Below are positions 29,552 to 62,960 of a stretch of DNA of 64,000 nt, one piece after another. The position numbers and the translations under genes are program-made. Within the stretch, counting starts at the first letter, position 1; each line of letters begins with the position of its first letter. Source of the stretch: Capillimicrobium parvum (lineage in GTDB: Bacteria > Actinomycetota > Thermoleophilia > Solirubrobacterales > Solirubrobacteraceae); assembly GCF_021172045.1 (NCBI RefSeq), contig NZ_CP087164.1, forward strand, positions 2,294,001 through 2,358,000. The letters are read 5' to 3'. Below the pieces are notes generated by a model. That model did no database searches. It worked only from the letters and a program-made list of their open reading frames with translations, and was not told the DNA's origin.

Positions 29552-30160
29552 ATGACGAACGCAATGCAAGACAGCGAGCAGAACATCGGCGACTCCTTCC
29601 GCGTGGCCATGTCGCGCCTCGCCGCCGGCGTCGTGATGGTCACCTGCCGCGTCGACGGTCAGCCGTGGGGACTGACGGTGAGCGCCTGCTGCTCCGTCTC
29701 GATGGACCCGCCCCTGATCCTCGCGTCGCTCGGCGCGAACACCGTGAGCGCTGCCGCCATCACACAGCACGGGATCTTCGGCATCAGCGTGCTCGGTCCG
29801 CAGCTCGTCGAGGTGGCGCAGTTCGGTTCGTCCCGCGGCGAGCCGAAGTTCATGCAGCACCTCTGCGCCAACGAGCACCCGCAATCAGACAGCCCGGCCG
29901 TCAACGGCGCGGTCGCCCACATCGACTGCCTGCTCGAGCAGCGCATCGTCGCGGGGGATCACATCCTCTTCATCGGCCGTGTGTGCAACGCGCTGCTGGG
30001 CGACAGCGACACCCCGCTGGTCTACCACGGTCGCACCTATCACCAACTCGTTCCCTCTACCGACCTGGGCGTGCGTCCCGTCGCCGACGAGACGATCGAC
30101 TCGCTCCTCTACGACTACCCGCTGCCGCGCCGGTTCGCGCGCGTGCATCCACCGAACTGA
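29552..30160 (+). CDS. Flavin reductase (HpaC-like), partner of the HpaB-type monooxygenase
   Basis: 202 residues of the flavin reductase-like FMN-binding barrel: FRVAMSRLAAGVVMVT at the N-terminus, GLTVSACCSVSMDPPLIL (flavin-binding loop), FGISVLG, and HGRTYHQL near the end. It would use NAD(P)H to supply reduced flavin. It lies 24 bases before the HpaB-type oxygenase gene, so the pair forms a two-component system. ATG 29552 matches the usual start of the family; the upstream open frame is not conserved-looking. A short C-terminal tail follows the domain. Confidence 0.88.
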   Translation: MTNAMQDSEQNIGDSFRVAMSRLAAGVVMVTCRVDGQPWGLTVSACCSVSMDPPLILASLGANTVSAAAITQHGIFGISVLGPQLVEVAQFGSSRGEPKFMQHLCANEHPQSDSPAVNGAVAHIDCLLEQRIVAGDHILFIGRVCNALLGDSDTPLVYHGRTYHQLVPSTDLGVRPVADETIDSLLYDYPLPRRFARVHPPN

Positions 30161-30184: not shown

Positions 30185-31753
30185 ATGGCTACGATCGAAC
30201 AGAAGCCGGTCGACACCGAGAAGCATTACCTGAAAACCGCCGAGGAGTACCTGAAGTCACTCCAGGACGGTCGTGAGGTGTACTACAAGGGCGAGCGCGT
30301 CGACGATGTGACGGACCACTTCGCGACGTCCGGCGGCATCCGGGAGATCGCTGAGCTCTACGACCTGCAGTTCGACGAGGAGGCGCGCAACGCGCTGACC
30401 TACGTGCGCGATGACGGCGCCCGGGTCACGGCGTCCTACCTGATCCCACGGACCAAGGACGACCTGCGCTTCCGCCGCGAGGGCATCAAGTTCGTCGCCC
30501 GCAGGACATGGGGCACGCACGGGCGCGGCATCGACATGATCGCCACGCTGCCCATCGGGATGCTGTCGGAGCTCCCGGCGTTCAAGCGCGAATGCGAGGA
30601 CGCCGAGAACATCAAGTGGTACATCAAGTACTGCGAGGAGAACAACATCCACCTCGGCGAGACGATCGTCGACCCGCAGGGGTATCGCTCGCGGGCGTCC
30701 GGCACCGCCCCGGACGTCCAGCCGCCCGACCGCGCCACCGCGCGGATCGTCAAGGAGAACGACAAGGGCATCTGGATCAGCGGCGTCAAGGGCGTCGGCA
30801 CCGCGGTGCCGCAGGCCAACGAGATCATCCTCGGCAGCTTCTTCCCGCCGCTCGACGAGGAGAGCTTCTGGGTCTTCGCCCCGATCAGCTCGCCCGGCCT
30901 GAAGATGTTCTGCCGCGAGGTGGTGCATCGCCCGGGATCCACCTGGTACGACCATCCGCTCACGTCGAAGGGCGAGGAGATCGAGTCGATCGTCGCCTTC
31001 GACAACCTGTTCATCCCGAACGAGCGGATCATCGCCCGCAAGAAGCGCGCACTGCACGGAGTGAACTTCTACAACGTGTGGGCCCGGCACGAGCACTGGT
31101 ACACGTTCGTCCGGATCGTCGCCAAGGCGGAGCTCTACGCGGGGCTCGCCCAGCTCATCGTCGACACGCTCGAGCTCAGCGAGGTCGCGGTGGTCCGTCA
31201 GCGCGTCGCGGAGATCATCGAGTACTGCCAGATCCTGCAGGGCATGCAGTACGCAGCCGAGGAGCTCGCCGACTTCTCGGAGGGCGGGGTCATGACCCCG
31301 GACGTCAACGTCGTGACGGCCGGCCGCTCCTACGCGCTGGAGAACCTGCCGCGGATCCTGCACATCCTTCAGGACATCTGCGGACAGGGCATGATCCTGC
31401 GCTGGAACGAGGCCGATCTCGAGACGCCGGCGGCGTTCGGCAAGAACCTCGCCTGGTTCCTGGACACGCGCAACATGAGCGCGCGGGACAAGAACCTGGT
31501 CATGAACCTCGTGTGGGACGTCGCGGCGAGCGAGCACGCCACGCGGTCGAAGCTCTTCGAGGAGTCCAACGCGCTGAACGTGCCGTTCCTCAAGGAGCGC
31601 CTCTACGGCGAGTACGACCGCACGTCGTTCCTGCAGGACTGCCGGCACTTCATCGGTCTGGCGGACGCGCCCGAGCGCACGTTCACGCCGAAGATCGAGG
31701 CGCCGTCGCTGTCGACGTACAACGCCGAGGACATGACGAAGCCGGCGAGGTAG
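30185..31753 (+). CDS. 4-hydroxyphenylacetate 3-hydroxylase (HpaB)-family FADH2-dependent monooxygenase
   Basis: 522 residues, the usual length for HpaB. The fold is related to acyl-CoA dehydrogenases and uses free reduced flavin and O2 to hydroxylate phenol-like rings. Visible features are the N-terminal YLKSLQDGREVYYKGERVDD, RTWGTHGRGIDM, KGVGTAVPQANEIILG, FVPNER-like NLFIPNERI and a long C-terminal helical domain. GGAGAGA precedes the ATG. Neighbours are its flavin reductase and, seven bases downstream, a NicF-like amidase, then NicX. No homoprotocatechuate genes are present, so 4-hydroxyphenylacetate is an unlikely substrate. A hydroxypyridine (for example 6-hydroxynicotinate) is the inferred one. 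Confidence 0.88.
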   Translation: MATIEQKPVDTEKHYLKTAEEYLKSLQDGREVYYKGERVDDVTDHFATSGGIREIAELYDLQFDEEARNALTYVRDDGARVTASYLIPRTKDDLRFRREGIKFVARRTWGTHGRGIDMIATLPIGMLSELPAFKRECEDAENIKWYIKYCEENNIHLGETIVDPQGYRSRASGTAPDVQPPDRATARIVKENDKGIWISGVKGVGTAVPQANEIILGSFFPPLDEESFWVFAPISSPGLKMFCREVVHRPGSTWYDHPLTSKGEEIESIVAFDNLFIPNERIIARKKRALHGVNFYNVWARHEHWYTFVRIVAKAELYAGLAQLIVDTLELSEVAVVRQRVAEIIEYCQILQGMQYAAEELADFSEGGVMTPDVNVVTAGRSYALENLPRILHILQDICGQGMILRWNEADLETPAAFGKNLAWFLDTRNMSARDKNLVMNLVWDVAASEHATRSKLFEESNALNVPFLKERLYGEYDRTSFLQDCRHFIGLADAPERTFTPKIEAPSLSTYNAEDMTKPAR

Positions 31754-31760: not shown

Positions 31761-32414
31761 ATGAGCGACGAGCAGGCCCGCCAGGTCTACGCGGCCGCGC
31801 GGCTGGGACAGAGCTTCGAACTCGGGTCTCGGCCCGCGGTCCTCGTCGTGGACCTCACGTGCGGCTTCACGGATCCGTCGTATCCCGTCGGATCCGACCT
31901 GACTGCGGAGATCGAGGCGACCAATCGCCTGCTCGGCGTCGCGCGGGAGCAGGGCGCGCCGGTGATCTTCACAACGATCGGATACGAGCCGGGCGGCACG
32001 GACGCTGGCGTCTGGCCGCAGAAGTTCCCTGCCATCCTCGACCTGCAGATCGGCGATCGCACCTCGGAGATCGACCCCCGCCTGCAGCGGCGGGCCGGCG
32101 AGCCCGTGGTGCTGAAGAAGGGCGCGTCGGCGTTCTTCGGCACGAACCTGTCAGCCATCCTCGTCGCCCTGCACATCGACACGGTCGTCCTGTGCGGCGC
32201 GACGACGAGCGGGTGCATCCGCGCCACCGCCATCGATCTCCTGCAGCACGGCTTCCCGGCGCTCGTGCCGCGGGAGTGCGTCGGCGACCGGGCGCGCGCC
32301 CCGCATGAGGCGAACCTCTTCGACATCCAGGCGAAGTACGCGGACGTCGTCTCGGTCGACGACGCGATCGCCTACCTCGAGAGCGTCACCACCCGCGCGG
32401 AGGCGGTCGGGTGA
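31761..32414 (+). CDS. nicF: Isochorismatase-fold amidase, probable maleamate amidohydrolase NicF
   Basis: 217 residues of the cysteine hydrolase family that includes NicF and N-carbamoylsarcosine amidase. The catalytic triad is Asp 31 (LVVDLTCGF), Lys 119/120 (VLKKGASAFFGT) and Cys 152 (GATTSGCIRATAID). The TTSGCIRATA loop and Y-E-P-G-G-T-D-A-G region fit the maleamate/carbamoylsarcosine branch more than isochorismatases. GGAGG lies between the HpaB stop and this ATG. With nicX next, nicD and nicE in the island, it most likely hydrolyses maleamate to maleate and ammonia. Confidence 0.82.
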   Translation: MSDEQARQVYAAARLGQSFELGSRPAVLVVDLTCGFTDPSYPVGSDLTAEIEATNRLLGVAREQGAPVIFTTIGYEPGGTDAGVWPQKFPAILDLQIGDRTSEIDPRLQRRAGEPVVLKKGASAFFGTNLSAILVALHIDTVVLCGATTSGCIRATAIDLLQHGFPALVPRECVGDRARAPHEANLFDIQAKYADVVSVDDAIAYLESVTTRAEAVG

Positions 32415-32456: not shown

Positions 32457-33533
32457 ATGGCCGCTTCATCCACATTCGTCGATCTCTGCGAGAAGGAGCT
32501 GAAGCTCTGCGGCGTGAAGGAGGGGGAGACGGTCGCGGTGCTGTCGCAGCTCGACGAACGCATCGACTACGCCGACGCGTTCATGGCCGCGGCGCGCAAG
32601 CTCGGCGCGACGCCGTTCAACGTGCGCCTGCCCGAGGCGTCCACCTCCCTGCTGGGTGACGCCGGCGCCTGGACGGTGGGCGAGACGCCGCTGGCCGACA
32701 ACGTCCCCGCGCTGGAGTCGCTGAAGTCCGCCGACATCGTGATCGACCTCATGTTCCTGCTGTTCTCCAAGGAGCAGCTCGAGATCCAGGAGGCCGGCTC
32801 CCGCATGCTGCTGTGCGTCGAGCCGATCGACAACCTCCAGCGGCTGTTCCCGACCCAGGACCAGCGCCGGCGCGTGGAGGTCAGCGAGGAGCTGCTGGGC
32901 AACGCCAAGAGCCTGCGGATCACCAACCACGCCGGCACCGACGTCGTCTACCAGCTCGGGTCCTTCCCCGTCATGACCGAGTACGGGTTCACCGACACGC
33001 CGGGCCGGTGGGACCACTGGCCGTCCGGCTTCCTCTTCACGGGCGGGTCGGACGACGGCGTCGACGGCAAGGTGGTCGTCGACCGCGGCGACATCGTCAT
33101 CACGCCGTTCAAGAAGTTCGTCGAGGACCCCGTCGAGCTGACCATCCGCCAGGGCCGGCTCGAGGACGTCCGCGGGGGCTTCGACGCCGAGCTGCTGCGT
33201 GACTACATCGCCGGGTTCGAGGACGAGAAGGCGTACGGCATCTCGCACATCGGCTGGGGCTGCAACGAGAAGTGCCGGTGGTCCGGCCTCGCCAACGACC
33301 GCCGCAGCATCGGCATGGAGAGCCGGGCGTTCTACGGCAACACGCTGTTCTCCACCGGCCCCAACCAGGAGCTCGGCGGGAACAACGACACCGCCTGCCA
33401 CATCGACATCCCCATGCGCAACTGCAGCATGTACCTCGACGACGAGCCGGTCCTCGTCGACGGCGAGTTCGTGGTCGAGGACCTCAAGGCCTCGCGCAGC
33501 ACGTTCGGATCCCCGTCGGTCACCACCGCGTGA
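32457..33533 (+). CDS. nicX: 2,5-dihydroxypyridine 5,6-dioxygenase NicX
   Basis: 358 residues of the NicX family, an extradiol-like mononuclear Fe(II) dioxygenase with an aminopeptidase T-like fold that opens 2,5-dihydroxypyridine to N-formylmaleamate. The metal ligands are visible as His 264 in ISHIGWG and the H-I-D motif (His 315, Asp 317) in NDTACHIDIPMRN; residue numbers agree closely with characterised NicX. AGAAAGG precedes the ATG. It follows the HpaB system and NicF and precedes a molybdenum hydroxylase, the expected set for pyridine-ring catabolism. A second, more divergent copy is at 20991-22055. Confidence 0.87.
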   Translation: MAASSTFVDLCEKELKLCGVKEGETVAVLSQLDERIDYADAFMAAARKLGATPFNVRLPEASTSLLGDAGAWTVGETPLADNVPALESLKSADIVIDLMFLLFSKEQLEIQEAGSRMLLCVEPIDNLQRLFPTQDQRRRVEVSEELLGNAKSLRITNHAGTDVVYQLGSFPVMTEYGFTDTPGRWDHWPSGFLFTGGSDDGVDGKVVVDRGDIVITPFKKFVEDPVELTIRQGRLEDVRGGFDAELLRDYIAGFEDEKAYGISHIGWGCNEKCRWSGLANDRRSIGMESRAFYGNTLFSTGPNQELGGNNDTACHIDIPMRNCSMYLDDEPVLVDGEFVVEDLKASRSTFGSPSVTTA

Positions 33534-33593: not shown

Positions 33594-34460
33594 GTGAAGC
33601 CCGCACCGTTCAAGTACGCCAGTCCGGAGAGCCTCGAGGAGGCGACGTCCCTGCTCCAGCAGCATGGCGACGACGCCAAGGTCCTCGCCGGCGGCCAGAG
33701 CCTGATCCCGCTGATGAACATGCGCCTCGCGCGGCCCGGCGTGCTCGTGGACATCAACCACGTTGCGGGACTCGATGGGATCAGCCGCAACGGGGGGCTG
33801 ACGATCGGCACGAACACCCGGCACGTGACGGTCCTGCGCTCCCCGGAGGTCCGGGCGTACGCGCCGATCGTCAACGAGGCCATGCGGCACGTGGGGCACG
33901 TCGGCATCCGCACGCGAGGGACGTTCGGCGGAGCCACGGCGCACGCCGACCCGGCGGCCGAGATCCCGGCGGTGCTCCTGGCGCTCGACGCGCAGATCAC
34001 CGTGCAGGGGCCGCAGGGCACGCGCACGATCGCGGCGGACGACTTCTTCGTCTCCACGTTCACGACCGAGCTGGAGGACGACGAGATCGTCACCGCCGTG
34101 CAGCTGCCGCACCCGCTGGACCACGCGGCGTGGTCCTTCCACGAGGTCTCGCGCCGCCACGGGGACTTCGCCCTGGTGGGCGTCGCCGCGGTGGCCGAGC
34201 TCGACGGCTCGGGCAACGTCAGCCGGGCCCGCATCGCGCTCAGCGGCGTCGCGGACACGCCCGTGCGCGTGACGCAGGCGGAGGACTCGCTCGTCGGACG
34301 CGCCCCGGCGGACGGTGCGGACGAGGCGGGACGGCTCGCCGAGCAGCAGCTCGATCCCCCGTCCGACTTCCATGCCACGAGCACGTATCGCCGGGAGGTC
34401 GCCGGTGCCCTGGTCACCCGGGCGCTGCAGGACATGGACACCAAGGGAGGATCCCGATGA
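33594..34460 (+). CDS. Molybdenum hydroxylase 1, FAD-binding medium subunit (CoxM/CutM-like)
   Basis: 288 residues of the FAD subunit of xanthine dehydrogenase-family enzymes. The FAD motif appears as VLAGGQSLIPLMNMRLARP and the second as TRGTFGGATAHADPAAEIPAV; the CO_deh_flav_C domain follows from about residue 175. It passes electrons from the iron-sulfur subunit to the acceptor. GTG 33594 has AGGAGG six bases upstream. The three subunit genes overlap or nearly touch (ATGA to the next). Substrate is not encoded in this subunit. Confidence 0.9.
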   Translation: MKPAPFKYASPESLEEATSLLQQHGDDAKVLAGGQSLIPLMNMRLARPGVLVDINHVAGLDGISRNGGLTIGTNTRHVTVLRSPEVRAYAPIVNEAMRHVGHVGIRTRGTFGGATAHADPAAEIPAVLLALDAQITVQGPQGTRTIAADDFFVSTFTTELEDDEIVTAVQLPHPLDHAAWSFHEVSRRHGDFALVGVAAVAELDGSGNVSRARIALSGVADTPVRVTQAEDSLVGRAPADGADEAGRLAEQQLDPPSDFHATSTYRREVAGALVTRALQDMDTKGGSR

Positions 34461-34972
34461 GCACGACCGTCAGCAGCCGCCGCATCGAGCCGACCGATGA
34501 CCAGCGCATCGTCACGCTGAAGGTCAACGGCGTCGAGAGGCGGGGAATCGCGGAGCCGCGCATGCTCCTCGTGGACTTCCTGCGTCACGAGCTCGACCTG
34601 ACCGGCACCCACGTGGGGTGCGAGCACGGGGTCTGCGGCGCCTGCACCGTGCGGATGAACGGCGAGGTCGTGCGCTCCTGCATCATGCTCGCGGTCCAGG
34701 CCGAGGGCGCCGAGATCGAGACGGTGGAGGGCCTGGCGACCAACGGGAAACTTCACCCGATCCAGGAGGCGTTCCGCGAGAAGCACGGGTTGCAGTGCGG
34801 CTTCTGCACGCCGGGGATGCTCCTGGCCGCGCAGACGCTGCTCGAGGAGAACCCGAACCCCACCGAGCCGGAGATCCGCGAGTACCTCTCCGGGAACATC
34901 TGCCGCTGCACCGGCTATGTCGGAATCGTCGCGGCCGTCAAGCACGCTGCCGAGCAGCAGTCACAGGCCTGA
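34457..34972 (+). CDS. Molybdenum hydroxylase 1, [2Fe-2S] small subunit (CoxS-like)
   Basis: 171 residues with two [2Fe-2S] centres. The plant-ferredoxin cluster is CEHGVCGACT plus a later Cys (RSCIML); the helical cluster is QCGFCTPG and CRCTGY. Order M-S-L is that of CO dehydrogenase and nicotinate or isoquinoline-type hydroxylases. A 20-residue N-terminal extension precedes the first strand. The ATG overlaps the medium-subunit stop by four bases. Confidence 0.92.
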   Translation: MSTTVSSRRIEPTDDQRIVTLKVNGVERRGIAEPRMLLVDFLRHELDLTGTHVGCEHGVCGACTVRMNGEVVRSCIMLAVQAEGAEIETVEGLATNGKLHPIQEAFREKHGLQCGFCTPGMLLAAQTLLEENPNPTEPEIREYLSGNICRCTGYVGIVAAVKHAAEQQSQA

Positions 34973-34983: not shown

Positions 34984-37398
34984 ATGGCGACCGACACGCT
35001 CAACACCGGACGCAACATCCAGCGCGATGCCGAGGCGAACTCCGTCATGGATCGCAAGAAGTACATCGGGATGAACGTCCTGCGCACCGAGGACCCGGTG
35101 TTCCTCACCGGGCGCGCGAAGTACACCGACGACATCCACCTGACCGGGATGCTGCACTGCGCCTTCCTGCGCAGCCCGCACCCCCACGCGAAGATCACCG
35201 GCATCGACAAGTCACCGGCGCTGGCGATCGACGGCGTCGTCGCGGTCATCACCGAGCAGGACCTCGAGCCCGTGCTGGGCCCGTTCTCCACCACGCTCAT
35301 GCGCGACGAGGTGGCGACCGTGCAACGGCCGATCCTCGACTCGACGACCGCCCGCTGGGTCGGCCAGCCGATCGCGATGGTCATCGCGGACTCGCGGTAC
35401 CTCGCCGAGGACGGCGTCGACGCGCTGGAGGTCGACTGGGAGCCGCTCGACCCGATCATGGACGCCGAGAAGGCGCTGGAGCAGGGATCGCCGCTGGTGC
35501 GCGAGGACATGGAGTCGAACAACTTCGCGCACATCGAGTTCCAGCGCGGCGACGTCGAGGGCGCGTTCAAGCGCGCCCACCGGGTGTTCCGCAAGCGCTT
35601 CCACCACGGGCGCTTCATGGCCGCCCCGCTGGAGGCGCGCGCGGTCATCGCCGACTGGGACACGGCGACCGACGATCTGACCGTGTGGACGTCGAGCCAG
35701 ATCCCGAACCTGATCCGCACCTACACGGCCGGGCCGCTGGGCATCGCCGAGAGCAAGATGCGCATCATCTCGGACTCGGTCGGCGGCGGCTTCGGCATGA
35801 AGGCCCACGTCTTCGACGAGGAGGCGCTGGTCCCCGCGGCCTCGAAGCTCGTCGGCAAGCCGGTGAAGTGGATCGAGGACCGCTACGAGAACCTGGCCGC
35901 CTCCTCGCATGCGAAGGAGATGGTCATGTACCTCGACGTCGCGGTGGACGAGAACAACAAGTTCCTCGCGTTCAAGGGCCACTACATCGGCGTGTCGGGC
36001 GCCTACCCCGCGCACCCGTGGACGTCGCTGATCGACCCGCTGCCGGCGGCCGGACTCCTGCCGAGCATCTACGACATCGAGGCGGTCCACACCGTGTGCG
36101 ACGCGCCGATGACGAACCGGTGCCCGATCGGCGCGTATCGCGGCGTCGGCTGGACGCCGGGGCACGTGGCGCGTGAGACGTTCATCGACGACATCGCGCG
36201 CGAGCTCGGCGTCGATCCCGTCGAGCTGCGGCTGCAGAACGCGATCCCCGACGAGCCGTTCACGACGGTGACGGGGATGAAGTACGACGGCGGCAGCTAC
36301 AGCGCGTCGATCCGCAAGGTGATGGAGATGATCGACTACGAGGGGCTGCGCAGGAAGCAGGCCGATCTGCGCAAGGAGGGGCGCTACCTCGGCATCGGCT
36401 TCAGCCCCTACGTCGAGCCGACCGCGTGGGGCTCTGAGGTCGCCAAGGCAAACGGGTTCCCGGCCGAGTTCTTCGACGCGGCCAGCGTGACGATCGAGCC
36501 CGACGGCTCGGTGACGGTGACGACCGGATGCCACAACCACGGGCAGGCGCACTACACGACCCTCGCCCAGGTCGCGGCGGACACGCTCGGCGTGCCGTTC
36601 GAGAGCATCCGGGTGATCGAGAACGACTCGAGCCGGGCGGTGTACGGGACGGGCACGTACGCGAGCCGCACCGCCGTGATCGCCGGCGGCGCGATCATGC
36701 GCGCCGGATCCGAGGTCCGCGACAAGATCGTCCGGCTCGCCGCCCACGCGATGGAGGTCAGCCCGGAGGACGTGGAGCTCGCCGACGGCTCGTTCAGCGT
36801 CAAGGGCGTCCCCGACAAGACCATGACGATGCAACAGGTCGGCATGCTGGCCTACTACGGCGGCGCCGCGCGGCTCGAGGGCGAGGAGCCGGCGCTGACC
36901 GCGACCCGGTCCTACGACCCTCCCGAGACGTACAGCAACGGCACGATAGTTGCGCTCGTCGAGGTCGACGCGGCGACGGGCAAGGTGGACCTGCAGCACA
37001 TCTCGTGCTGCGAGGACTGCGGGACGATGCTCAACCCGATGGTCGTCGACGGGCAGATGGCCGGCGCGATCTCACACGGCATCGGCGGGTCGATGTACGA
37101 GGACCTCACCTACGACGAGAACGGACAGTTCCTGGCGGGCAGCCTCATGGACTACCTGTACCCGTCCACCACCGAAGTTCCGGATATGGACATCAGTCAC
37201 ATCGAGACGCCCTCGGTCGTGACGGAAGGAGGGATCAAGGGCATGGGCGAGTCGGGCAACATCGCCGCCGGCGCCGCATGCCTCAACGCGATCGCGGACG
37301 CCATCAGCTGCTTCGGTACCGTCGAGATCACCAAGACGCCGATCGGCCCGAACGAGGTCCGCGAGCTCATCCGCAATGCCGGCAACGGGGGCGCGTAG
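34984..37398 (+). CDS. Molybdenum hydroxylase 1, molybdopterin-binding large subunit
   Basis: 804 residues. Features in order: DPVFLTGRAKYTDDI, GGGFGMK (Mo-cofactor glycine loop), IGAYRGVGWTPG, GCHNHGQAHYTTLAQ, and the catalytic Glu in GGIKGMGESGN near the C-terminus. The AYRCSFR active loop of CO dehydrogenase is absent (AYRGVGW instead), so it is not form I CODH. It should insert water-derived oxygen next to a ring nitrogen or on an aldehyde. With NicX, NicF and HpaB beside it, nicotinate, picolinate or a hydroxypyridine is the inferred substrate. GGGGG precedes the ATG. Confidence 0.9.
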   Translation: MATDTLNTGRNIQRDAEANSVMDRKKYIGMNVLRTEDPVFLTGRAKYTDDIHLTGMLHCAFLRSPHPHAKITGIDKSPALAIDGVVAVITEQDLEPVLGPFSTTLMRDEVATVQRPILDSTTARWVGQPIAMVIADSRYLAEDGVDALEVDWEPLDPIMDAEKALEQGSPLVREDMESNNFAHIEFQRGDVEGAFKRAHRVFRKRFHHGRFMAAPLEARAVIADWDTATDDLTVWTSSQIPNLIRTYTAGPLGIAESKMRIISDSVGGGFGMKAHVFDEEALVPAASKLVGKPVKWIEDRYENLAASSHAKEMVMYLDVAVDENNKFLAFKGHYIGVSGAYPAHPWTSLIDPLPAAGLLPSIYDIEAVHTVCDAPMTNRCPIGAYRGVGWTPGHVARETFIDDIARELGVDPVELRLQNAIPDEPFTTVTGMKYDGGSYSASIRKVMEMIDYEGLRRKQADLRKEGRYLGIGFSPYVEPTAWGSEVAKANGFPAEFFDAASVTIEPDGSVTVTTGCHNHGQAHYTTLAQVAADTLGVPFESIRVIENDSSRAVYGTGTYASRTAVIAGGAIMRAGSEVRDKIVRLAAHAMEVSPEDVELADGSFSVKGVPDKTMTMQQVGMLAYYGGAARLEGEEPALTATRSYDPPETYSNGTIVALVEVDAATGKVDLQHISCCEDCGTMLNPMVVDGQMAGAISHGIGGSMYEDLTYDENGQFLAGSLMDYLYPSTTEVPDMDISHIETPSVVTEGGIKGMGESGNIAAGAACLNAIADAISCFGTVEITKTPIGPNEVRELIRNAGNGGA

Positions 37399-37488: not shown

Positions 37489-38925
37489 ATGTTCGCAGTG
37501 TTCAAAGAACAGGTGTCAATCGACATCTTCGCCCTGGACATCTTCTATGTCCTCGCGGTCATCTGCCTGTTCCTCGTCGTCGCGGCCTTCGGGCTCATCG
37601 ATTCAGGGCTCGTCAGGCGCAAGAACCTGCTGGACACCTGGGTGCAGAAGATCCTCGCCTCGCTGTTCGCCGGCCTGGCGTTCATCATCGTGGGCTTCGG
37701 GATCTGGAACTGGCAGTTCAACGAGGCCTTCGGCGTCGCGAACCCGCTGAGTGAAGCCATCAAGTCCTGGTGGCTCGGCGGCACGAACATGACCGAGTTC
37801 GCCGGCAACCTCGATCCGAAGCTCGTGCCCGAATCGGACGTTCTTCAGATCTTCTCGGTGTTCTTCATCGTCTACGCCGCGGCGATGGCCGCGCTCATCC
37901 ACTCGGCGGGCCTCGAACGCGTGAAGGCCGTGCCGATCTACATCCTGTCGATTGCCGCCGGCGGCATCGTGATGCCGTTCCTCGCGTATCTGACGTGGGG
38001 CTCGGTCAGCCCGCTGACGAACGCAGGCGTGCACGACTACGTCGGCAACTTCTCGTTCTACATCTTCGTGGGCGTCTGGGCGCTGATCCTGGCGTGGCGG
38101 GCGGGACCCCGGCTCGGGGTTCACACGCCGCATCCTGGGACATCCGGCCCGCTGCCGCACAACATGGGCCGAACCGCATTCGGCGTCGTCCTGTTGATGT
38201 TCGCCATCCCGTTCCTCGTGCTGGGCTGCGGGTACTTCGTGCCCGGCGTCGGGTACTTCGGCATCTCGGTGACCAGCAGCGGGATCGGCGTGGTGCTGCT
38301 CAACATCTTCATGGCGTTCTGCGGTGGCGCCGTGACGGGCGCGATCCTGGCGTACTGGCGGCACGACGCCGTCTGGGCCCTGCTGGGGCCGCTGGCCGGG
38401 TACGTGTCGGGGACGGCCGGCTTCGACGTGTTCAAGCCATGGGAGATGCTGATCGTGGCGCTGTTCGCGCCCCTGATCGTCTTCGCCGGCTACAAGACGA
38501 TGGCCAAGCTGAAGATCGATGAGCAGAAGGTCGTGCCGCTGGCGCTGTTCGGCGGCATCTACGGCGCGATCGTCGTCGGCTTCGTCAAGTGGCACACGGC
38601 GACGGGCGGCTACTTCGGGCTCCAGGGCAAGTACGCGCCCGGCAACTCCCAGATCACGCCGGGGTGGCAGCTCATCGGCGTCGGCGTGGCCGTGGGGGTC
38701 GCCGCGATCTCCGGGCTGATCCTCATCGTCGGGATCGAGAAGACGATCGGGCTCCGCGTCAAGGAGGCGGACGAGCTCGAGGGCCTCGACAGCGCCTACT
38801 GGGGTCTGCCCTCGGCGGCGGAGACCATCCTGCCGGACGGCGCGCCCCTCACCCCGGCCGGCGCGACCGGCGGGCCGGGCGGGAGGTTCGCGACGGCGGG
38901 ACCACTGGAGTCGCCGTCGGAGTGA
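37489..38925 (+). CDS. Divergent Amt-family membrane transporter lacking the twin-His pore motif
   Basis: 478 residues, about eleven membrane spans. Amt landmarks are GLVRRKNLLDTW (family GL.R.KN), ALIHSAGLERVK (family ..G..AER), LTWGS, HDYVG (conserved Asp of GALDFAG), and the C-terminal GLRVKEADELEGLDSAYWG. By manual alignment with AmtB the first pore His falls on Tyr (NFSFYIF) and the second on Leu/Ala (VVPLALFGGIYG), so the ammonium-conducting site is missing. AGGAGG precedes the ATG. It lies directly after the hydroxylase genes and may take up another substrate or sense ammonium; both are inference. Confidence 0.82.
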   Translation: MFAVFKEQVSIDIFALDIFYVLAVICLFLVVAAFGLIDSGLVRRKNLLDTWVQKILASLFAGLAFIIVGFGIWNWQFNEAFGVANPLSEAIKSWWLGGTNMTEFAGNLDPKLVPESDVLQIFSVFFIVYAAAMAALIHSAGLERVKAVPIYILSIAAGGIVMPFLAYLTWGSVSPLTNAGVHDYVGNFSFYIFVGVWALILAWRAGPRLGVHTPHPGTSGPLPHNMGRTAFGVVLLMFAIPFLVLGCGYFVPGVGYFGISVTSSGIGVVLLNIFMAFCGGAVTGAILAYWRHDAVWALLGPLAGYVSGTAGFDVFKPWEMLIVALFAPLIVFAGYKTMAKLKIDEQKVVPLALFGGIYGAIVVGFVKWHTATGGYFGLQGKYAPGNSQITPGWQLIGVGVAVGVAAISGLILIVGIEKTIGLRVKEADELEGLDSAYWGLPSAAETILPDGAPLTPAGATGGPGGRFATAGPLESPSE

Positions 38926-39051: not shown

Positions 39052-39942
39052 GTGAGTACCACGTCGGCCGTCGCCTTCGGCTCCATCGAGGAGGTCGAAG
39101 CGGCCCTCCAGCGCGAGCGCTACCTGCCGGACCGTGGTCTGGCCACGGCGATCTACCTGGCGCTCGCGACCCGTCGCCCGCTGCTCCTGGAGGGCGAGGC
39201 CGGCGTCGGCAAGACCGAGGTCGCCAAGACGCTGGCCACGATCCTGGACGCCGAGCTCGTGCGCCTGCAGTGCTACGAGGGCATCGACGCGAGCCAGGCG
39301 CTCTATGAGTGGGACTACGCCCGCCAGCTGCTCTACGCGCGGGCCATCCAGCTTGGCGAGCAGGGAGTGCGCAGCGCCGAGCTGGGGCTCTACGGCCCCG
39401 AGTTCCTCATCGAGCGCCCGCTGCTGCGGGCGTTGCGTCATGGTGGCTCGACGGTGCTGCTCATCGACGAGCTCGATCGCTCCGACGACGAGTTCGAGGC
39501 CTTCCTGCTCGAGGTGCTCTCGGACTACTCCGTGACGATCCCCGAGATCGGGACGGTCGAGGCCGCCGTGCCACCCGTGGTGATCCTCACGTCCAACCGG
39601 ACGCGAGAGCTCCACGATGCGCTCAAGCGCCGCTGCCTGTTTCACTGGATCGACTTCCCGGGCGCCAAGCGGGAGGCGGAGATCATCCGCGTGCGCGCGC
39701 CCGGCGTGTCCGAGCAGCTCGCCACGTCCGTCGCGCGGACGATCGCGCGCATCCGGGAGTTGGACCTGATCAAGATGCCGGGCGCCGCCGAGGCCATCGA
39801 CTGGGCCCAGGCCCTCGTCCTGCTCGGAGCCGATGCGGTCACCTCGGAGGCGGCGCGCGTCAGCCTCGGATGGGTCATCAAGAACCGAGACGACCTCATC
39901 CGCGTCGAAGAGCTGCTGCCCGAGCTGCTCGCCGATGAGTGA
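39052..39942 (+). CDS. coxD: CoxD-like MoxR-type AAA+ ATPase
   Basis: 296 residues, the length of CoxD. Walker A is GEAGVGKTE, Walker B VLLIDELDR, sensor 1 LTSNRTREL, and the arginine finger region is ALKRRCLFHW. CoxD is an ATP-dependent chaperone that works with CoxE to mature the active site of Cox-type molybdenum hydroxylases. GTG has GAGGAGG upstream. It overlaps coxE by eight bases, the usual arrangement. It probably serves both hydroxylases of the island. Confidence 0.88.
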   Translation: MSTTSAVAFGSIEEVEAALQRERYLPDRGLATAIYLALATRRPLLLEGEAGVGKTEVAKTLATILDAELVRLQCYEGIDASQALYEWDYARQLLYARAIQLGEQGVRSAELGLYGPEFLIERPLLRALRHGGSTVLLIDELDRSDDEFEAFLLEVLSDYSVTIPEIGTVEAAVPPVVILTSNRTRELHDALKRRCLFHWIDFPGAKREAEIIRVRAPGVSEQLATSVARTIARIRELDLIKMPGAAEAIDWAQALVLLGADAVTSEAARVSLGWVIKNRDDLIRVEELLPELLADE

Positions 39943-41020
39943 GGAGCTCCTCGACCGAGTGATCGGCTTCGGGCGCGAGCTGCGCGACGAGGGACTTCCG
40001 GTCGGCACCGGGCAGATCCTCGAGTTCAGCCGCGCGGCGGCGATGCTCGGGCCGGCGGACCTCTACTGGGCGGGGCGGGCCACGCTGGTGACGCGCCGGG
40101 CCGACATCAAGCCCTACACCCTCGTCTTCGATCGCTACTGGACGGGCAACTACGGCCGCCGGGTGGAGATGAAGGAGGTCATCGAGCGCGTCCGCGGCGT
40201 GGCCGACGACGGCGGGCTCGAGGGGGGCGAGCGGGGCCGTGATGTCACGCCTGACGCCGAGCGGGCGAGCCGGCTCGAGCTGCTGCGCACACGCAGCTTC
40301 GCCAAGCTGACTCCCGAGGAGCTCAGCGAGCTCGCCCGGCTCGTGGCGCGGATCTCCCTCGCGGTGCCGCTGCGGCGGTCGCGCCGGCGGCAGGCGGCGC
40401 GACGGGGGGCGCCGGATCTGCGCCGCACGCTGCGCCGGTCGTTCCGGACCGGCGGCGAACCCGTCGAGCGCGCCTGGCGCGAGCGCCGCCTGCGCAGCCG
40501 GCGGGTGATCTTCATCGTCGACGTCTCCGGGTCGATGGCGTCGTACTCGCGTGGGCTGCTCGTGTTCGCGCACGCCGCCCTGCGCTCGAGCGGCAACTGG
40601 GAGGCGTTCTGCTTCGGCACGCGCCTGACCCGGGTGACGCGCGCCCTCATGCGCACCGATCCCGACGTCGCGCTGGCCCGCGCCGCCGACGAGGTCCTCG
40701 ACTGGGACGGCGGAACGCGGATCGGGGAGTCGCTCAAGCAGTTCCTCGACCGCTACGGCCACGGGGGCATGGCCCGCGGCGCGGTCATCGTGATCTGCTC
40801 CGACGGGCTCGACCTCGGCGACCCGGCGGTCCTGGCGGCCCAGATGCGCCGCCTGGTGCGCCTCGCGCACCGGGTGATCTGGCTGAACCCGCTGCAGGAG
40901 CAGGCCGGCTACCGGCCCATCGCCCGGGGGATGGCCGCCGCGCTGCCATACGTCGACACCTTCGCGAGCGGCCACAGCTGGGCGAGCCTCGAGGCATTGG
41001 CCGACGAGCTGGCGGACTAG
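39935..41020 (+). CDS. coxE: CoxE-like von Willebrand factor A domain protein
   Basis: 361 residues. The N-terminal half is basic and helical (RRSRRRQAARRG). The C-terminal half is a VWA domain with the MIDAS motif DVSGSMASYS, a conserved Thr region (DWDGGTRIGESL) and CSDGLDLGD. CoxE pairs with the CoxD ATPase in maturation of molybdenum hydroxylases, probably at the membrane. The ATG lies inside the coxD end. The gene is followed 47 bases later by nicD. Confidence 0.87.
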   Translation: MSEELLDRVIGFGRELRDEGLPVGTGQILEFSRAAAMLGPADLYWAGRATLVTRRADIKPYTLVFDRYWTGNYGRRVEMKEVIERVRGVADDGGLEGGERGRDVTPDAERASRLELLRTRSFAKLTPEELSELARLVARISLAVPLRRSRRRQAARRGAPDLRRTLRRSFRTGGEPVERAWRERRLRSRRVIFIVDVSGSMASYSRGLLVFAHAALRSSGNWEAFCFGTRLTRVTRALMRTDPDVALARAADEVLDWDGGTRIGESLKQFLDRYGHGGMARGAVIVICSDGLDLGDPAVLAAQMRRLVRLAHRVIWLNPLQEQAGYRPIARGMAAALPYVDTFASGHSWASLEALADELAD

Positions 41021-41067: not shown

Positions 41068-41892
41068 ATGACGACGCACGACACCACGAGGACCGAACCA
41101 CGCGGCGAGAGCGGCTTCGTACAGGCCAACGGGCTGCGCCATCACTTCCTGTCCTACGGCGACGGCGATCGCACGGTGGTGATCGTGCCGGGCATCACGA
41201 GCCCGGCCATCACATGGGAGTTCGTGGCGGAGCGGCTGGCCGACCTGGCGCGCGTCGTCGTCCTCGACCTGCGGGGACGTGGGCTGTCCGACGTGCCGGC
41301 GCACGGCTACGCCCTGCCGGACTACGCGGCCGACGTGGCCGGCGTCATCGACGCGCTCGGGCTCGAGCGCCCAGTCCTGCTCGGCCACTCCCTCGGGGCG
41401 CGGATCGTCGCCGCCCTCGGGGCGCTGCACCCCGAGTCGTGCGGTCCGATGATCCTCGCCGACCCGCCGCTGACGGGCCCCGGCCGCGACCCGTACCCGA
41501 CGACCCGCGAGAGCTTCGAGCAGCAACTGCACGAGGCCTATGCCGGAACGACGGCGGACGAGGTACGGCGCTTCTACCCACGCTGGCCGGAGGCCGAGCT
41601 GCAGCTGCGGGCCGAATGGCTCCCGACGTGCGACGAGAGCGCCGTCATGGCCACCTACCGCAACTTCGAGCTCGAGGACTTCTTCGCGTACTGGACCCGG
41701 CTCGGCGGACCGCTGCTGTTCGTCCACGGCAGCGTGAGCCCGGTCGTCACGGCGGCCGGAGCGGCCGAGGTCGCCGCGGCGAACCCGGCGGCGCAGACGG
41801 TGGCCATCGCGGACGCCGGGCACATGATCCCGTGGGAGAACCTCGAGGACTTCGTCACGGTGTGCCGCCGCTTCATCGCCGCGGCCGAGTAG
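41068..41892 (+). CDS. nicD: N-formylmaleamate deformylase NicD (alpha/beta hydrolase)
   Basis: 274 residues. It carries the stretch VPGITSPAITWEFVAERL, which I recognise as nearly identical to characterised NicD, where it forms the oxyanion region. The catalytic triad is Ser 108 (LLGHSLGAR), Asp 132 (ILADPPLTGPGR) and His 252 (DAGHMIPWE). NicD removes formate from N-formylmaleamate, the product of NicX, giving maleamate for NicF. GAGGAG precedes the ATG. It closes the plus-strand block after coxDE and is convergent with the DUF3891 gene ten bases away. Confidence 0.87.
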   Translation: MTTHDTTRTEPRGESGFVQANGLRHHFLSYGDGDRTVVIVPGITSPAITWEFVAERLADLARVVVLDLRGRGLSDVPAHGYALPDYAADVAGVIDALGLERPVLLGHSLGARIVAALGALHPESCGPMILADPPLTGPGRDPYPTTRESFEQQLHEAYAGTTADEVRRFYPRWPEAELQLRAEWLPTCDESAVMATYRNFELEDFFAYWTRLGGPLLFVHGSVSPVVTAAGAAEVAAANPAAQTVAIADAGHMIPWENLEDFVTVCRRFIAAAE

Positions 41893-44099: not shown

Positions 44100-44130
44100 G
44101 TTCACCACCACCGATGACCGGAAGGACGAC

Positions 44131-55676: not shown

Positions 55677-57512
55677 ATGGCCACCACGGAACGGACGTTT
55701 CCCAGCCCCTTCTCGGTGGCCACCCCGACCGGCGCCGAGGGGTGGGAGGAGCTGTATCCCTACTACCTGCGTTTCCGCGAGGACCAGCGGGAGTCGGAGG
55801 AGAGCCGCTTCTGGTTCTTCGACGGCATGCACAATCCGCAGCCGATCTACCCGTTCGACACGATCATGGTCGAGAACTGGTGGGTCTCCTGCAACCTGCA
55901 GACGGTGCGGCTGTGGCAGGTGCCGCCGGCGCTGGGCATCGACCAGCGCATCATGAACGGCTACATCTACTGCAGCCCGACCGCGCTCGATGATCCGGAC
56001 GAGGTGGCCGCGCGCGTGCCCGTCTTCCAGCGGCGGGCGGGCTACTACTTCCAGCACTGGGACGAGATCTACGCCGCGTGGATCCCGAAGGCCGAGGACT
56101 GCATCGAGCGGTTGAAGGCCATCAGCTTCGAGCCGCTTCCCGACAAGGAGCCCGAGAGCTCCGTCACGGAGCACCCGGGGGTGTACAGCAGCTGGCATCT
56201 GCTGCGCCGCTACGACGAGCTGATCTCGAACATGTTCGAGATGGGGTCGTATCACTTCGAGATGCTGAATCTCGGCTACGGCGCCTACAACACGTTTCGC
56301 GAGTTCTGCCAGGCCGCGTTTCCCGGGATCACCGACCAGACGATCGCTCGGATGGTGGCCGGCATCGACATCATGTACTTCCGGCCCGACGACGAGGTGC
56401 GCGGCCTCGCGCGCCGGGCCGTCGAGCTGGGCCTGGCGCCGCTCGTCCGCGAGCTGACCGACCCTGACGAGCTGATGGCGGCGATGGCCGAACGCTCCGA
56501 GGGCCGCGAGTGGCTGACCGCGCTCGAGGCGGCCAAGGAACCTTGGTTCTGGTACTCGACCGGTGTCGGCTACACGCACACCGACCGCGCGTGGATCGAC
56601 GACCTGCGTCTGCCGTTCGACGCGATGCGCGGCTACGTCGACAAGATCGAGGCCGGCGAGGACATCGACCGGCCGCTCGAGCGCGTCCTCGAGGAGCGTG
56701 CGCGGATCACCGAGGAGTACGCGGAGGTGATCGCCGCCGACGAGGACCGCGCCGCGTTCCTCGAGCTCGTGGAGCTCGCCCGTCAGGTCTATCCGTACGT
56801 CGAGAACCACAACTTCTACGTGGAGCACTGGCACCACTCGTTGTTCTGGAACAAGGTGCGCGAGCTGGGCGACCTGTTCGTCGGAGCCGGGTTCTTCGGC
56901 GACCGCGAGGACATCTTCTACCTGCACCGCGACGAGGTGCGCTCGGCGCTGTACGACCTCGTGGCGGGCTGGGCGACCGGCTGCACGCCGAGAGGCCCGA
57001 GCTACTGGCCGCCGATCATCGCGCGGCGCGTCCGGATCCTCGAGGCGCTGCGCACGGCCAATCCCGACCCGGCCCTCGGCACGCCGCCCCTCGAGATCAA
57101 GGAGCCGATCTCGATCATGCTCTGGGGGATCACGCCGACCATGGTGGAGAGCTGGCTCGACGGCGGCGAGGACGCCGCCACGGAGCTCCGCGGCGTGGCG
57201 GCATCGCCCGGCGTCGCCCGGGGGCCCGCGCGCGTCGTCAACTCGCCCGACGAGCTCCACGGCGTTCAGAGCGGCGACGTGCTGGTCTGCCGCATCACCG
57301 CGCCGAGCTGGGCCCCGGTGTTCTCGCGCGTCGCCGGCGCGGTGTCCGACATCGGGGGGATCATGGCCCACACGGCGATCGTCTCCCGCGAGTACGGGCT
57401 GCCCGCCGTCGTGGGCACGGGCTTCGCGACCCAGAACATCAAGGACGGCCAGCTCGTCGAGGTGGACGGCGACAACGGCGTGGTCCGCATCCTCGACGCC
57501 ACGGCGACATGA
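55677..57512 (+). CDS. PEP-utilizing swivel-domain protein, PpsA (phenylphosphate synthase)-like
   Basis: 611 residues. The C-terminal 90 or so are a PEP-utilizing mobile (phosphohistidine) domain: GVAASPGVARGPARVV, DVLVCRITAPSWAPVF and GGIMAHTAIVSREYGLPAVVG with His 565. The long N-terminal part is helical and rich in Trp, Tyr and His. It lacks an ATP-grasp domain, which is encoded by the next gene. Size, domain split and His position agree with subunit PpsA of phenylphosphate synthase (about 70 kDa, phospho-His near 569). CAGGAGG precedes the ATG. It probably transfers phosphate to a hydroxylated substrate (inference). Confidence 0.8.
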   Translation: MATTERTFPSPFSVATPTGAEGWEELYPYYLRFREDQRESEESRFWFFDGMHNPQPIYPFDTIMVENWWVSCNLQTVRLWQVPPALGIDQRIMNGYIYCSPTALDDPDEVAARVPVFQRRAGYYFQHWDEIYAAWIPKAEDCIERLKAISFEPLPDKEPESSVTEHPGVYSSWHLLRRYDELISNMFEMGSYHFEMLNLGYGAYNTFREFCQAAFPGITDQTIARMVAGIDIMYFRPDDEVRGLARRAVELGLAPLVRELTDPDELMAAMAERSEGREWLTALEAAKEPWFWYSTGVGYTHTDRAWIDDLRLPFDAMRGYVDKIEAGEDIDRPLERVLEERARITEEYAEVIAADEDRAAFLELVELARQVYPYVENHNFYVEHWHHSLFWNKVRELGDLFVGAGFFGDREDIFYLHRDEVRSALYDLVAGWATGCTPRGPSYWPPIIARRVRILEALRTANPDPALGTPPLEIKEPISIMLWGITPTMVESWLDGGEDAATELRGVAASPGVARGPARVVNSPDELHGVQSGDVLVCRITAPSWAPVFSRVAGAVSDIGGIMAHTAIVSREYGLPAVVGTGFATQNIKDGQLVEVDGDNGVVRILDATAT

Positions 57513-58579
57513 CCGCGGCGGAGCCATCGATCGTCTGGCTCGACGAGGACGGCGCCACGCCGGAGCGGCTCGGCGGCAAGTTCGGCAGCCTCGCGGAGAT
57601 GGTGCGCGCGGGCTTCGCCGTGCCGCCCGGCTTCGGCGTCACCACGGCCGCCTACCGGGCATTCGTGCAGGCGGGCGGCCTCGACGAACGCATCGGCGGG
57701 CTGCTCGGCGAGGCGCCGCCGGACGACCTGGACGCGATCGAGCGCGCGAGCGCCGAGATCGCGCGGCTGATCCGGCAGGCGCCGATGCCGGCCCGGCTCG
57801 AGGACGAGATCCGCGCGGGCTACGCGGAGCTCGAGTCGCGCACGGGCACGGCGGGCGTGCCGGTCGCCGTGCGCTCGAGCGGCGTGCTGGAGGACACGGC
57901 GGGCGCCAGCTTCGCGGGCCAGTACGACACCTATCTCTGGATCCAGGGCGCGGACGCCGTGCTCGAGCACGTCCGGCGTTGCTGGTCCGGGCTCTTCGGG
58001 CCCCAGGTGTTGACGTACCACCCGCATGGCGAGGGCGTCCGGCACGCCGAGCGGGCGGCGATGTGCGTCGGGGTCCAGCAGATGATCGCCGCCCGGGCCG
58101 CGGGCGTCGCGTTCACCCTCGACCCCGTCACCGGGGATCGCTCGAAGATCGTCATCGAGGCGGTGTGGGGCCTCGGCGAGGGGGTCGTGAGCGGTGACGT
58201 CTCGCCGGATCGCTTCCGCGTGGACAAGATCACCCTCGAGGTCCTGTCGCGCGAGATCGCCGAGAAGGCGGGCGAGCACCGGCTCGATCCCGCCTCGGGC
58301 AGCGTCCGCCTCGTCGACGTCGAGCCCGAGCGCCGTGGCGCCGCCAGCCTCGACGACGACCTCGTCCGCGCGATCGCGTCCGAGGCCAAGCGCATCGAGC
58401 GCCATCGCCAGGCGCCGCAGGACATCGAGTGGGCGGTCGACGAGGAGGCCCGCCTGCACGTGGTCCAGGTCCGGCCCGAGACGGTGTGGAGCCGCCGGCC
58501 CGCGAAGCGGATCGTCGAGCCCGGGCAGGGGGCGCTCGACCGCGTGCTCTCCAGCTTCATCCGGCCGGGGGGACGATGA
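57509..58579 (+). CDS. PEP/pyruvate-binding ATP-grasp protein, PpsB-like
   Basis: 356 residues corresponding to the N-terminal ATP-grasp domain of PEP synthase: LGGKFGSLAEMVRAGFAVPPGF, VAVRSSGVLEDTAGASFAGQYDTYL, GVQQMIAARAAGVAFTLDP, EAVWGLGEGVVSG and the terminal QDIEWAVDEEARLHVVQVRP. It would use ATP to phosphorylate the swivel His of the preceding protein. Length matches PpsB (about 40 kDa). Start and stop both overlap neighbours (ATGA), so it is tightly coupled to the PpsA-like gene and to molybdenum hydroxylase 2. No PpsC-like CBS-domain subunit is seen. Confidence 0.85.
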   Translation: MTAAEPSIVWLDEDGATPERLGGKFGSLAEMVRAGFAVPPGFGVTTAAYRAFVQAGGLDERIGGLLGEAPPDDLDAIERASAEIARLIRQAPMPARLEDEIRAGYAELESRTGTAGVPVAVRSSGVLEDTAGASFAGQYDTYLWIQGADAVLEHVRRCWSGLFGPQVLTYHPHGEGVRHAERAAMCVGVQQMIAARAAGVAFTLDPVTGDRSKIVIEAVWGLGEGVVSGDVSPDRFRVDKITLEVLSREIAEKAGEHRLDPASGSVRLVDVEPERRGAASLDDDLVRAIASEAKRIERHRQAPQDIEWAVDEEARLHVVQVRPETVWSRRPAKRIVEPGQGALDRVLSSFIRPGGR

Positions 58580-59445
58580 AGGCGGCGCCCATGGGGTACG
58601 TCCGCCCCGGCACCGTCGCCGAAGCGGTGGCCGAGCTCGCGCGCCACGACGGCACGGCCCGCGTCCTCGCCGGCGGCCAGAGCCTCGTGCCGATGATGCA
58701 CATGCGCCTGATGCGGCCGTCGACGGTGATCGACATCAACGCGCTCGACACCGAGCTCGGACGGATCGAGGCGAACGGCTCCGACACGCTGATCGGCGCC
58801 CTCGTGCGCTACCGCGAGCTCGAGACGTCGCCGGTGGTGGCGGAGCGGCTGCCGATCCTGTCGACGATCGTGCGCCACATCGGCGACCGGCAGGTCCGCA
58901 ACCGCGGCACGGTCGGCGGTGCGCTCGCGCAGGCGGACCCCACCGGGGAGCTCGCTCTCGCCTGCCTGGCGCTCGGGGCCGAGGTGACCGCGCGCAGCGC
59001 GCGCGGCGAGCGGACCATCCCGATCAGCGAGTTCTTCGAGGGCGCGTACGCCAGCGCCCTGGAGCCCGACGAGCTGCTCACCGCGGTTCGCGTACCGCTC
59101 GCCCCGACGCACTGCCGCTTCTTCGAGCGTGCGCGCAAGCACAACGACTTCGCCGTCCTCAGCGTGCTGGCGATGGGCAGCGCCGCCCCGGACGGGCGCT
59201 GGTCGTCGGTGCGCCTGGCGCTGGGTGGCGTCGACGAGCGTCCCGTCCTCGCGACGGCCGCGGCGGCGAGCCTGGAGGACCGGATCTGGGACGACGCCGC
59301 GATCGCCGAGGCGGCCGCGCTGGCCCTCGACGCCATCGACCCGCCCGACGACGTGCGCGCCAGCGCCGAGTACCGCCGCCACCTCGTCGGCGTCCACGTG
59401 CGACGCGTGCTGGCCGATCTCGACCAGCGAGGGCAGGGCAGATGA
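58576..59445 (+). CDS. Molybdenum hydroxylase 2, FAD-binding medium subunit
   Basis: 289 residues with the FAD motifs VLAGGQSLVPMMHMRLMRP and NRGTVGGALAQADPTGELAL, then the CO_deh_flav_C domain. It is a paralogue of the subunit at 33594 but not a close copy. The ATG overlaps the PpsB-like stop and its stop overlaps the small-subunit start, so the hydroxylase is made together with the PEP-synthase-like pair. This suggests that the two activities act in sequence on the same compound. Confidence 0.9.
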   Translation: MKAAPMGYVRPGTVAEAVAELARHDGTARVLAGGQSLVPMMHMRLMRPSTVIDINALDTELGRIEANGSDTLIGALVRYRELETSPVVAERLPILSTIVRHIGDRQVRNRGTVGGALAQADPTGELALACLALGAEVTARSARGERTIPISEFFEGAYASALEPDELLTAVRVPLAPTHCRFFERARKHNDFAVLSVLAMGSAAPDGRWSSVRLALGGVDERPVLATAAAASLEDRIWDDAAIAEAAALALDAIDPPDDVRASAEYRRHLVGVHVRRVLADLDQRGQGR

Positions 59446-59921
59446 GCGACGAGGTCCCGATCACCGTGACGGTCAACGGCACGGTGCACCGTGCGAGCGT
59501 GGACGCGCGCACCCATGCGGCCGACTTCCTGCGCCACACCCTGCACATGACCGGCACGCACGTCGGGTGCGAGCAGGGCGTCTGCGGCATGTGCACGGTG
59601 CTCCTCGACGGCGACGCCGTGAAGTCGTGCCTGCTCCTGGCGCCGCAGCTCGACGGGCACGAGATCGAGACGGTCGAGAGCCTGGCCGACGGCGACGGGC
59701 TCAACGCGCTGCAGGAGGCGTTCCGCGACGCCCACGCGCTGCAGTGCGGGTTCTGCACCCCCGGGTTCCTGATGACCACGACGGCGCTGGCGCGCGATGG
59801 CCGGCGGCGGTCCCGCGAGGAGATCCGCGAGGAGCTCTCGGGCGTGCTGTGCCGCTGCACGGGCTACGAGAACATCGTCACGGCGGTCGAGCGCCATCTC
59901 TCGGAGGCCCGCGGTGTCTGA
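59442..59921 (+). CDS. Molybdenum hydroxylase 2, [2Fe-2S] small subunit
   Basis: 159 residues. Cluster motifs are CEQGVCGMCTV with a later Cys (VKSCLLL), and QCGFCTPG with CRCTGY. ATG 59442 overlaps the medium-subunit stop. It lacks the N-terminal extension of the paralogue at 34457. Its stop lies eight bases inside the large-subunit gene. Confidence 0.92.
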   Translation: MSDEVPITVTVNGTVHRASVDARTHAADFLRHTLHMTGTHVGCEQGVCGMCTVLLDGDAVKSCLLLAPQLDGHEIETVESLADGDGLNALQEAFRDAHALQCGFCTPGFLMTTTALARDGRRRSREEIREELSGVLCRCTGYENIVTAVERHLSEARGV

Positions 59922-62912: not shown

Positions 62913-62960
62913 GGGCGATGACCACGTGATCGCCGCGACCAGAGTCAGGAGGTGTCGGCC

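Follow-up and report, generated by a model that had tools for sequence, protein, structure and literature searches.

What does a protein of the ammonium transporter (Amt) family do among genes for pyridine degradation when both histidines of its ammonium pore have been replaced? The question is raised by a gene of Capillimicrobium parvum at 37489-38925 of the 64,000-nucleotide stretch analysed here (hereafter the window; NZ_CP087164.1, positions 2,294,001 to 2,358,000), whose product we call Tyr-Amt for the tyrosine at one of the two pore positions. The initial annotation of this DNA had placed the protein in the Amt/Rh family, directly after molybdenum hydroxylase genes, and had proposed either a changed substrate, perhaps an N-heteroaromatic compound, or a sensor role for the ammonium released by the maleamate amidohydrolase NicF.

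The open reading frame (ORF), on the forward strand, starts with ATG and encodes 478 amino acids without an internal stop, and its start lies 91 bp past the end of the molybdenum hydroxylase large subunit gene, as had been described. Membership in the Amt/Mep/Rh superfamily is borne out both by the whole-domain PF00909 profile, which covers residues 19-438 of 478 with 133.7 bits against a cut-off of 23.2, and by the 11-transmembrane (TM) Amt fold of an AlphaFold2 model (predicted local distance difference test 87.3 and predicted template modelling score 0.88 from a 25-sequence alignment, with low confidence in the C-terminal tail past about residue 450). The top fold matches of the model are Amt, Mep and Rh structures (Z 35-47; solved Amts Z 43-47), VIA-align giving Z 46.6 to Amt1 of S. 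denitrificans (Shewanella) and Z 44.9 to AmtB (root-mean-square deviation 2.5 over about 385 residues). The protein has the Amt/Rh fold, with PF00909 as the single Pfam domain found in it and no signalling domain fused to it. Its score against TIGR00836, the NCBIfam model of true Amts, is 141.6 bits, far under the cut-off of 343.3. Kinship with urea transporters was considered and rejected, their fold match (Z about 14) being far under those of the Amts.

The twin-His pair H168/H318 of proper ammonium transporters is replaced: AmtB H168 corresponds to Tyr191 and H318 to Ala352 in phmmer alignments to solved Amts, in a MAFFT alignment with E. coli AmtB and in the profile-profile alignment by hhalign of the clade described below with canonical Amts (E 8e-64). 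The last of these had been named as the check that might recover the histidines and returns none at either position. No histidine occurs within residues 183-205 (TM5) or 340-362 (TM10), and a shifted alignment would therefore restore no pore histidine. Further pore changes are F215 to Leu243, W212 to Ile240 and S219 to Cys247 (MAFFT and hhalign), and AmtB F107 corresponds to a tyrosine, leaving neither residue of the F107/F215 Phe gate. The outer vestibule is kept, as the initial annotation had seen, with Trp170 for AmtB W148 and Asp183 before TM5 for D160, both invariant in the clade; these residues form a cation site in AmtB, and the conservation of D160 may also be structural. The AmtB double mutant H168A/H318A binds ammonium and cannot transport it, while single-His mutants still pass ammonium and become channel-like for NH4+ and K+ (PMC7447429), and substitutions of F215 abolish transport (PMC10433425).

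About 30 relatives were gathered: two close ones from genome contigs, scanned with a short pattern that detects close kin only, most from 399 genomes of the same class, and three from plasmids of Rhodobacterales. The sampling thus covers one bacterial class plus plasmids, and the three plasmids carry the only cross-phylum members seen in it; among 396 genomes of the phylum, all matches passing 1e-30 belong to the same class. In a maximum-likelihood tree, the 30 full-length Tyr-Amts form one clade (support 100/100) apart from 12 other Amts, which include AmtB and the canonical Amt of the window genome itself. Position 168 (AmtB numbering) is tyrosine in 30 of 30 clade members, while the comparison Amts are His/His in 12 of 12. 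Position 318 is Ala, Thr, Gly or Phe, the last defining subclade II (10 sequences, 100/100); the remaining 20 sequences, with Ala, Thr or Gly, are here called subclade I, which the tree does not recover as one branch. Thirty-six columns are invariant in the clade, and hhalign identifies Asp38, Lys54, Trp95, Gln120, His138, Tyr191, Lys347 and Trp438 as near-invariant clade-specific residues. Reading frames are intact in nearly all members, and the ratio of nonsynonymous to synonymous substitution (dN/dS) is 0.03-0.35 over eight pairwise comparisons. Tyr-Amt genes are under purifying selection, and the pore change is clade-wide, not a stray mutation; it takes in F215 and W212 as well as the histidines, the residues by which AmtB conducts and selects ammonium. 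One member, L062:9000-10519, is split over two adjacent ORFs, either through a frameshift or through misassembly of a genome that is 53% complete. The window genome has three PF00909 genes: that at 37489-38925, a paralog of the same type with 60% identity, and the canonical His/His Amt. The paralog (G000:C1:3724321-3725625, locus L012) lies isolated, with a DUF2254 gene on one side and a TrwC relaxase fragment on the other.

The clade is linked to catabolic gene clusters, which in subclade I are mostly those of pyridines (genes at the loci were predicted with a simple gene caller). In the window, genes for a flavin reductase, an HpaB-type monooxygenase, NicF, the 2,5-dihydroxypyridine dioxygenase NicX, three molybdenum hydroxylase subunits, Tyr-Amt, CoxD- and CoxE-like maturation factors and a deformylase follow one another on one strand, and the placing of Tyr-Amt between the large subunit and the maturation genes recurs in L011 and L042. 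In L004, L005, L013, L047, L048 and L049 the order differs, Tyr-Amt adjoining nicX, nicF or the deformylase gene (divergent or inserted), and several of these loci add a split dikinase-like pair (phosphoenolpyruvate (PEP)-utilizer and PPDK_N) and another molybdenum hydroxylase. Maleate isomerase homologs (one BLAST cluster) occur near Tyr-Amt in L004, L005, L013, L042, L047 and L050, and homologs of the genes of a second window cluster (55677-62912) flank it in L004, L005 and L013. Among the 399 class genomes, 17 contain a close homolog of nicX (58% identity or more) and 14 contain subclade I, with both in 10 genomes against 0.6 expected (hypergeometric 7e-13, uncorrected for phylogeny, a value that overstates independence because the genomes are related). 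In 8 of these 10, and in the record L005, nicX lies within 12 kb of Tyr-Amt. In L050 and L053, Tyr-Amt stands at or near a contig end with a PEP-utilizer gene, and the nicX contigs of the same genomes (L080 and L086) break off close to the corresponding point, suggesting in each case one such cluster split during assembly. The family tree that the initial annotation had called for thus does yield a twin-His-less clade, found together with nicX and molybdenum hydroxylases across many genomes, in varied gene orders.

Members away from nicX have other neighbours. The nearest relative (L041, 64% identity) lies in a same-strand run with genes for a nicotinate phosphoribosyltransferase (NF006629, 525 bits against a curated cut-off of 405), a HAD phosphatase-like protein and phosphoribosyl pyrophosphate synthetase; near Tyr-Amt in L043 and L046 are genes for an aldehyde dehydrogenase and an acyl-CoA dehydrogenase, joined in L043 by one for a nucleoside hydrolase, and near that of L045 are genes for an arginase-family protein and a type III glutamate-ammonia ligase.

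In most subclade I clusters, Tyr-Amt is the only multi-spanning membrane protein of the core, as judged by counts of hydrophobic segments; possible permease genes lie farther out in L013 and L048, and a CynX-type gene of the major facilitator superfamily (MFS) lies outside the operon in the window and farther out in L042. By comparison, all eight nicX loci without Tyr-Amt that were read carry another transporter gene: MFS in L074, L075, L078 and L081, NCS1 (PF02133, cytosine/purine/allantoin) in L076 and L077, and ATP-binding cassette (ABC) in L079 and L082. If these proteins are the importers of their loci, as we infer, the pattern fits one importer swapped for another, and no other indirect argument favours uptake over sensing or export as strongly.

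Subclade II is found with genes of methylated-amine metabolism. Near Tyr-Amt in L014, L056, L059 and L062, all from the window's class, are DUF1989-GCV_T proteins 53-56% identical to the aminomethyltransferase encoded near Tyr-Amt on Paracoccus plasmids; this architecture was reportedly described for Tdm, the trimethylamine-N-oxide demethylase of Methylocella (Zhu et al. 2014). Annotated dimethylamine monooxygenase subunits are encoded near Tyr-Amt on the plasmids of Paracoccus sp. MA and Ponticoccus, the former also having genes for a type III glutamate-ammonia ligase and a sarcosine oxidase, and in P. alcaliphilus the aminomethyltransferase gene adjoins Tyr-Amt. In the figure of methylated-amine gene regions of the paper on dmm, an amtB gene is drawn, and the part of the text available to us does not discuss its pore (PMC5520151). 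A His/His Amt also lies near Tyr-Amt in L014, L056, L062 and Ponticoccus. Separately, His/His Amts with Ala at F103 were observed near subclade II Tyr-Amts at L014:12928-14406, L056:495-1964, L062:12661-14160 and L066:22864-24237, two Amt pore types being paired in one cluster at these four loci.

As far as sequences and the predicted structure go, the clade has kept the fold, replaced the pore, remained under selection and stayed linked to catabolic operons. On these grounds we consider it somewhat better than an even prospect that Tyr-Amts are Amt-fold permeases which import a small organic nitrogen compound degraded by the neighbouring enzymes, in the window a pyridine, probably nicotinate, nicotinamide or a hydroxypyridine. 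We give even chances to the broader proposition that a bacterial subfamily turned the Amt/Rh fold into an organic-nitrogen importer, for pyridines in one branch and methylated amines in the other, through replacement of the twin-His pair, F215 and W212. The permease role, the import direction and the substrate class of each subclade are what we infer. Tyr-Amt would then no longer be an ammonium channel; the substrate would gather in the retained outer vestibule (D160, W148) and cross a pore rebuilt by Tyr168 with Ala, Gly or Thr at 318 in subclade I, or by Tyr168 with Phe318 in subclade II, to be converted by the enzymes, for pyridines from 2,5-dihydroxypyridine through N-formylmaleamate, maleamate and maleate to fumarate and ammonium. 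The changed substrate of the initial annotation thereby receives indirect support: the linkage to nicX and molybdenum hydroxylases, and the other transporters where Tyr-Amt is absent, agree with an N-heteroaromatic compound, and the methylated-amine link of subclade II would make the class wider than pyridines.

Ammonium as the substrate is made less likely by the loss of both pore histidines and of F215, and by the exchange of Tyr-Amt for members of other transporter families. Several points nevertheless count against an organic-nitrogen importer. Pyridines are far larger than ammonia. L012, L041, L043, L045, L046 and L055 have no nearby nicX, and the clade is therefore not confined to nicX loci (as L041, L043, L045 and L046 illustrate), while the clade is missing from some nicX genomes, G705 and G621 among them. 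The substrates of the two subclades would differ in charge, so that no single shared substrate can be named, and gene association cannot separate substrate import from product export. Finally, single-His mutants of AmtB still conduct ammonium (PMC7447429), and an unusual ammonium or K+ pore is therefore still conceivable in Tyr-Amt.

That last point leads to an altered-pore exit or exchange channel for ammonium or ammonia, which would clear the ammonium set free by NicF or by amine demethylation. Ammonium is released by all the linked pathways, D160 and W148 are retained, and the channel-like behaviour of single-His AmtB variants towards NH4+ and K+ provides a precedent (PMC7447429); the AmtB mutant that lacks both histidines does not transport, however, and F215, also lost here, is required (PMC7447429, PMC10433425). 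Moreover, nicX loci without the clade hold genes of MFS, NCS1 or ABC proteins, the putative importers, and not another Amt, and the window genome retains a canonical His/His Amt. We regard such a channel as unlikely.

Equally unlikely, in our judgement, is that both subclades import one and the same small solute, a protonated amine or another, and that the link to pyridines is only indirect. It would suit the methylated amines of subclade II, the type III glutamate-ammonia ligase and arginase-family genes near L045, and the vestibule Asp and Trp, which are a cation site in AmtB; against it stand the strong local link of subclade I to nicX, the nicotinate phosphoribosyltransferase beside the nearest relative, and a D160 that may be kept for structural reasons.

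A non-transporting receptor, which would bind substrate or ammonium and signal through a partner, seems to us quite improbable. Sensors built on the Amt fold exist (Ks-Amt5, Sd-Amt1), and loss of the twin-His pair could leave the pore closed, but none of the 478 residues belongs to a fused signalling domain, no conserved partner kinase adjoins the gene, and the operons without another transporter would be left with no importer. A strict motif search, which is weak evidence, also found no P-II gene in the loci. The sensor for NicF-released ammonium that had been proposed finds no support, given the same absences of a signalling domain and of P-II matches, and the sensor Ks-Amt5 keeps its twin-His pair (PMC10433425). 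That Tyr-Amt is merely a decayed, functionless paralog carried along in the operon, as the lost pore residues might suggest, is contradicted by selection (intact frames, low dN/dS, the invariant columns) and by linkage that recurs in different gene orders, and we give it next to no credence.

Table 1. Tyr-Amt and the pyridine-related genes of the window
Feature	Position	Strand	Basis
Flavin reductase of two-component monooxygenase	29552..30160	+	NCBIfam HpaC/StyB-like, below equivalog cut-offs
HpaB-type FADH2 monooxygenase, oxygenase component	30185..31753	+	PF11794/PF03241; PDB 7dbw 8e-61
Maleamate amidohydrolase (NicF-like)	31761..32414	+	PF00857; PDB 4l07 7e-56
NicX, 2,5-dihydroxypyridine 5,6-dioxygenase	32457..33533	+	PDB 7cn3 1.6e-95
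Molybdenum hydroxylase FAD subunit	33594..34460	+	PF00941/PF03450
Molybdenum hydroxylase 2Fe-2S subunit	34457..34972	+	PF01799/PF00111
Molybdenum hydroxylase large subunit	34984..37398	+	PF02738/PF20256/PF01315
Twin-His-less Amt-family protein (Tyr191/Ala352), 478 aa, 11-TM fold	37489..38925	+	PF00909, AlphaFold model, pore residues
AAA ATPase, CoxD-like maturation factor	39052..39942	+	PF07728
VWA protein, CoxE-like maturation factor	39935..41020	+	PF05762
N-formylmaleamate deformylase (NicD-like)	41068..41892	+	PDB 4l0c 'Deformylase' 6e-55
Second pyridine-type cluster: PEP-utilizer mobile domain, PPDK_N, FAD/FeS/Mo subunits, CoxG	55677..62912	+	
Maleate isomerase (NicE/Iso-like), in second Mo-hydroxylase cluster	62961..63725	+	PDB 4fq7 7e-70

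Other genes of the window touch on the same metabolism (Table 1). The region 55677-63725, with its molybdenum hydroxylase, split dikinase-like pair, CoxG and maleate isomerase, has the look of a pyridine-hydroxylating system of its own; such a pair presumably belongs to 3-hydroxypyridine dehydrogenase clusters, which the region resembles. A distant NicX-like protein of the same BLAST cluster as NicX is encoded at 20991-22055, and the window genome has five NicX-family matches at E <= 1e-60. Two genomes share DUF3891, creatininase and RidA-like genes downstream of this operon (window 41903-44373 and L042:13453-17006), and a CynX/NimT-type MFS gene at 44779-45969, about 3 kb from the operon and also downstream in L042, encodes a possible alternative transporter for the pyridine operon.

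Among known systems, the 'ammonium transporter, marine subtype' TIGR03644 matches Tyr-Amt weakly (85 bits against a cut-off of 514), and no tested clade member reaches that cut-off. The human RhD and RhCE proteins lack the pore histidines, a point on which a literature check returned nothing; they are animal blood-group proteins, not encoded in catabolic operons. With AmtB and other Amts (PF00909, TIGR00836), Tyr-Amt shares the 11-TM fold, D160, W148 and the C-terminal GLRV..E..GLD motif, but it is only about 20-23% identical to them in structure alignments and differs by H168Y, H318A, F215L, W212I and S219C. Ks-Amt5 and Sd-Amt1, which are among its top fold matches, likewise put the Amt fold to another role, but Ks-Amt5 retains the twin-His pair (PMC10433425) and Tyr-Amt is without a signalling domain. 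In the fungal Mep1 and Mep3, too, the first histidine of the pore is naturally changed (PMC9040831, PMC7447429), yet they have Glu there and still carry ammonium, whereas Tyr-Amt has lost both histidines, to Tyr and Ala. This His-to-Glu change in fungal Meps is the only natural variation of the pair stated in the AmtB study (PMC7447429, eLife 2020), and our literature search found no paper connecting ammonium transporters with pyridine catabolism and no bacterial double-His-less clade tied to organic-nitrogen catabolism. Tyr-Amts are thus a new variant of a known family with a possibly new function. Should they transport pyridines or methylamines, missing importers would be named for the degradation of N-heterocycles and methylamine, and the annotation 'ammonium transporter' in these clusters would be wrong and need correction. 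Set beside the Amts, Meps and sensors, a bacterial clade without both histidines and with new invariant Asp38, Tyr191, Lys347 and Trp95 is a natural experiment on selectivity.
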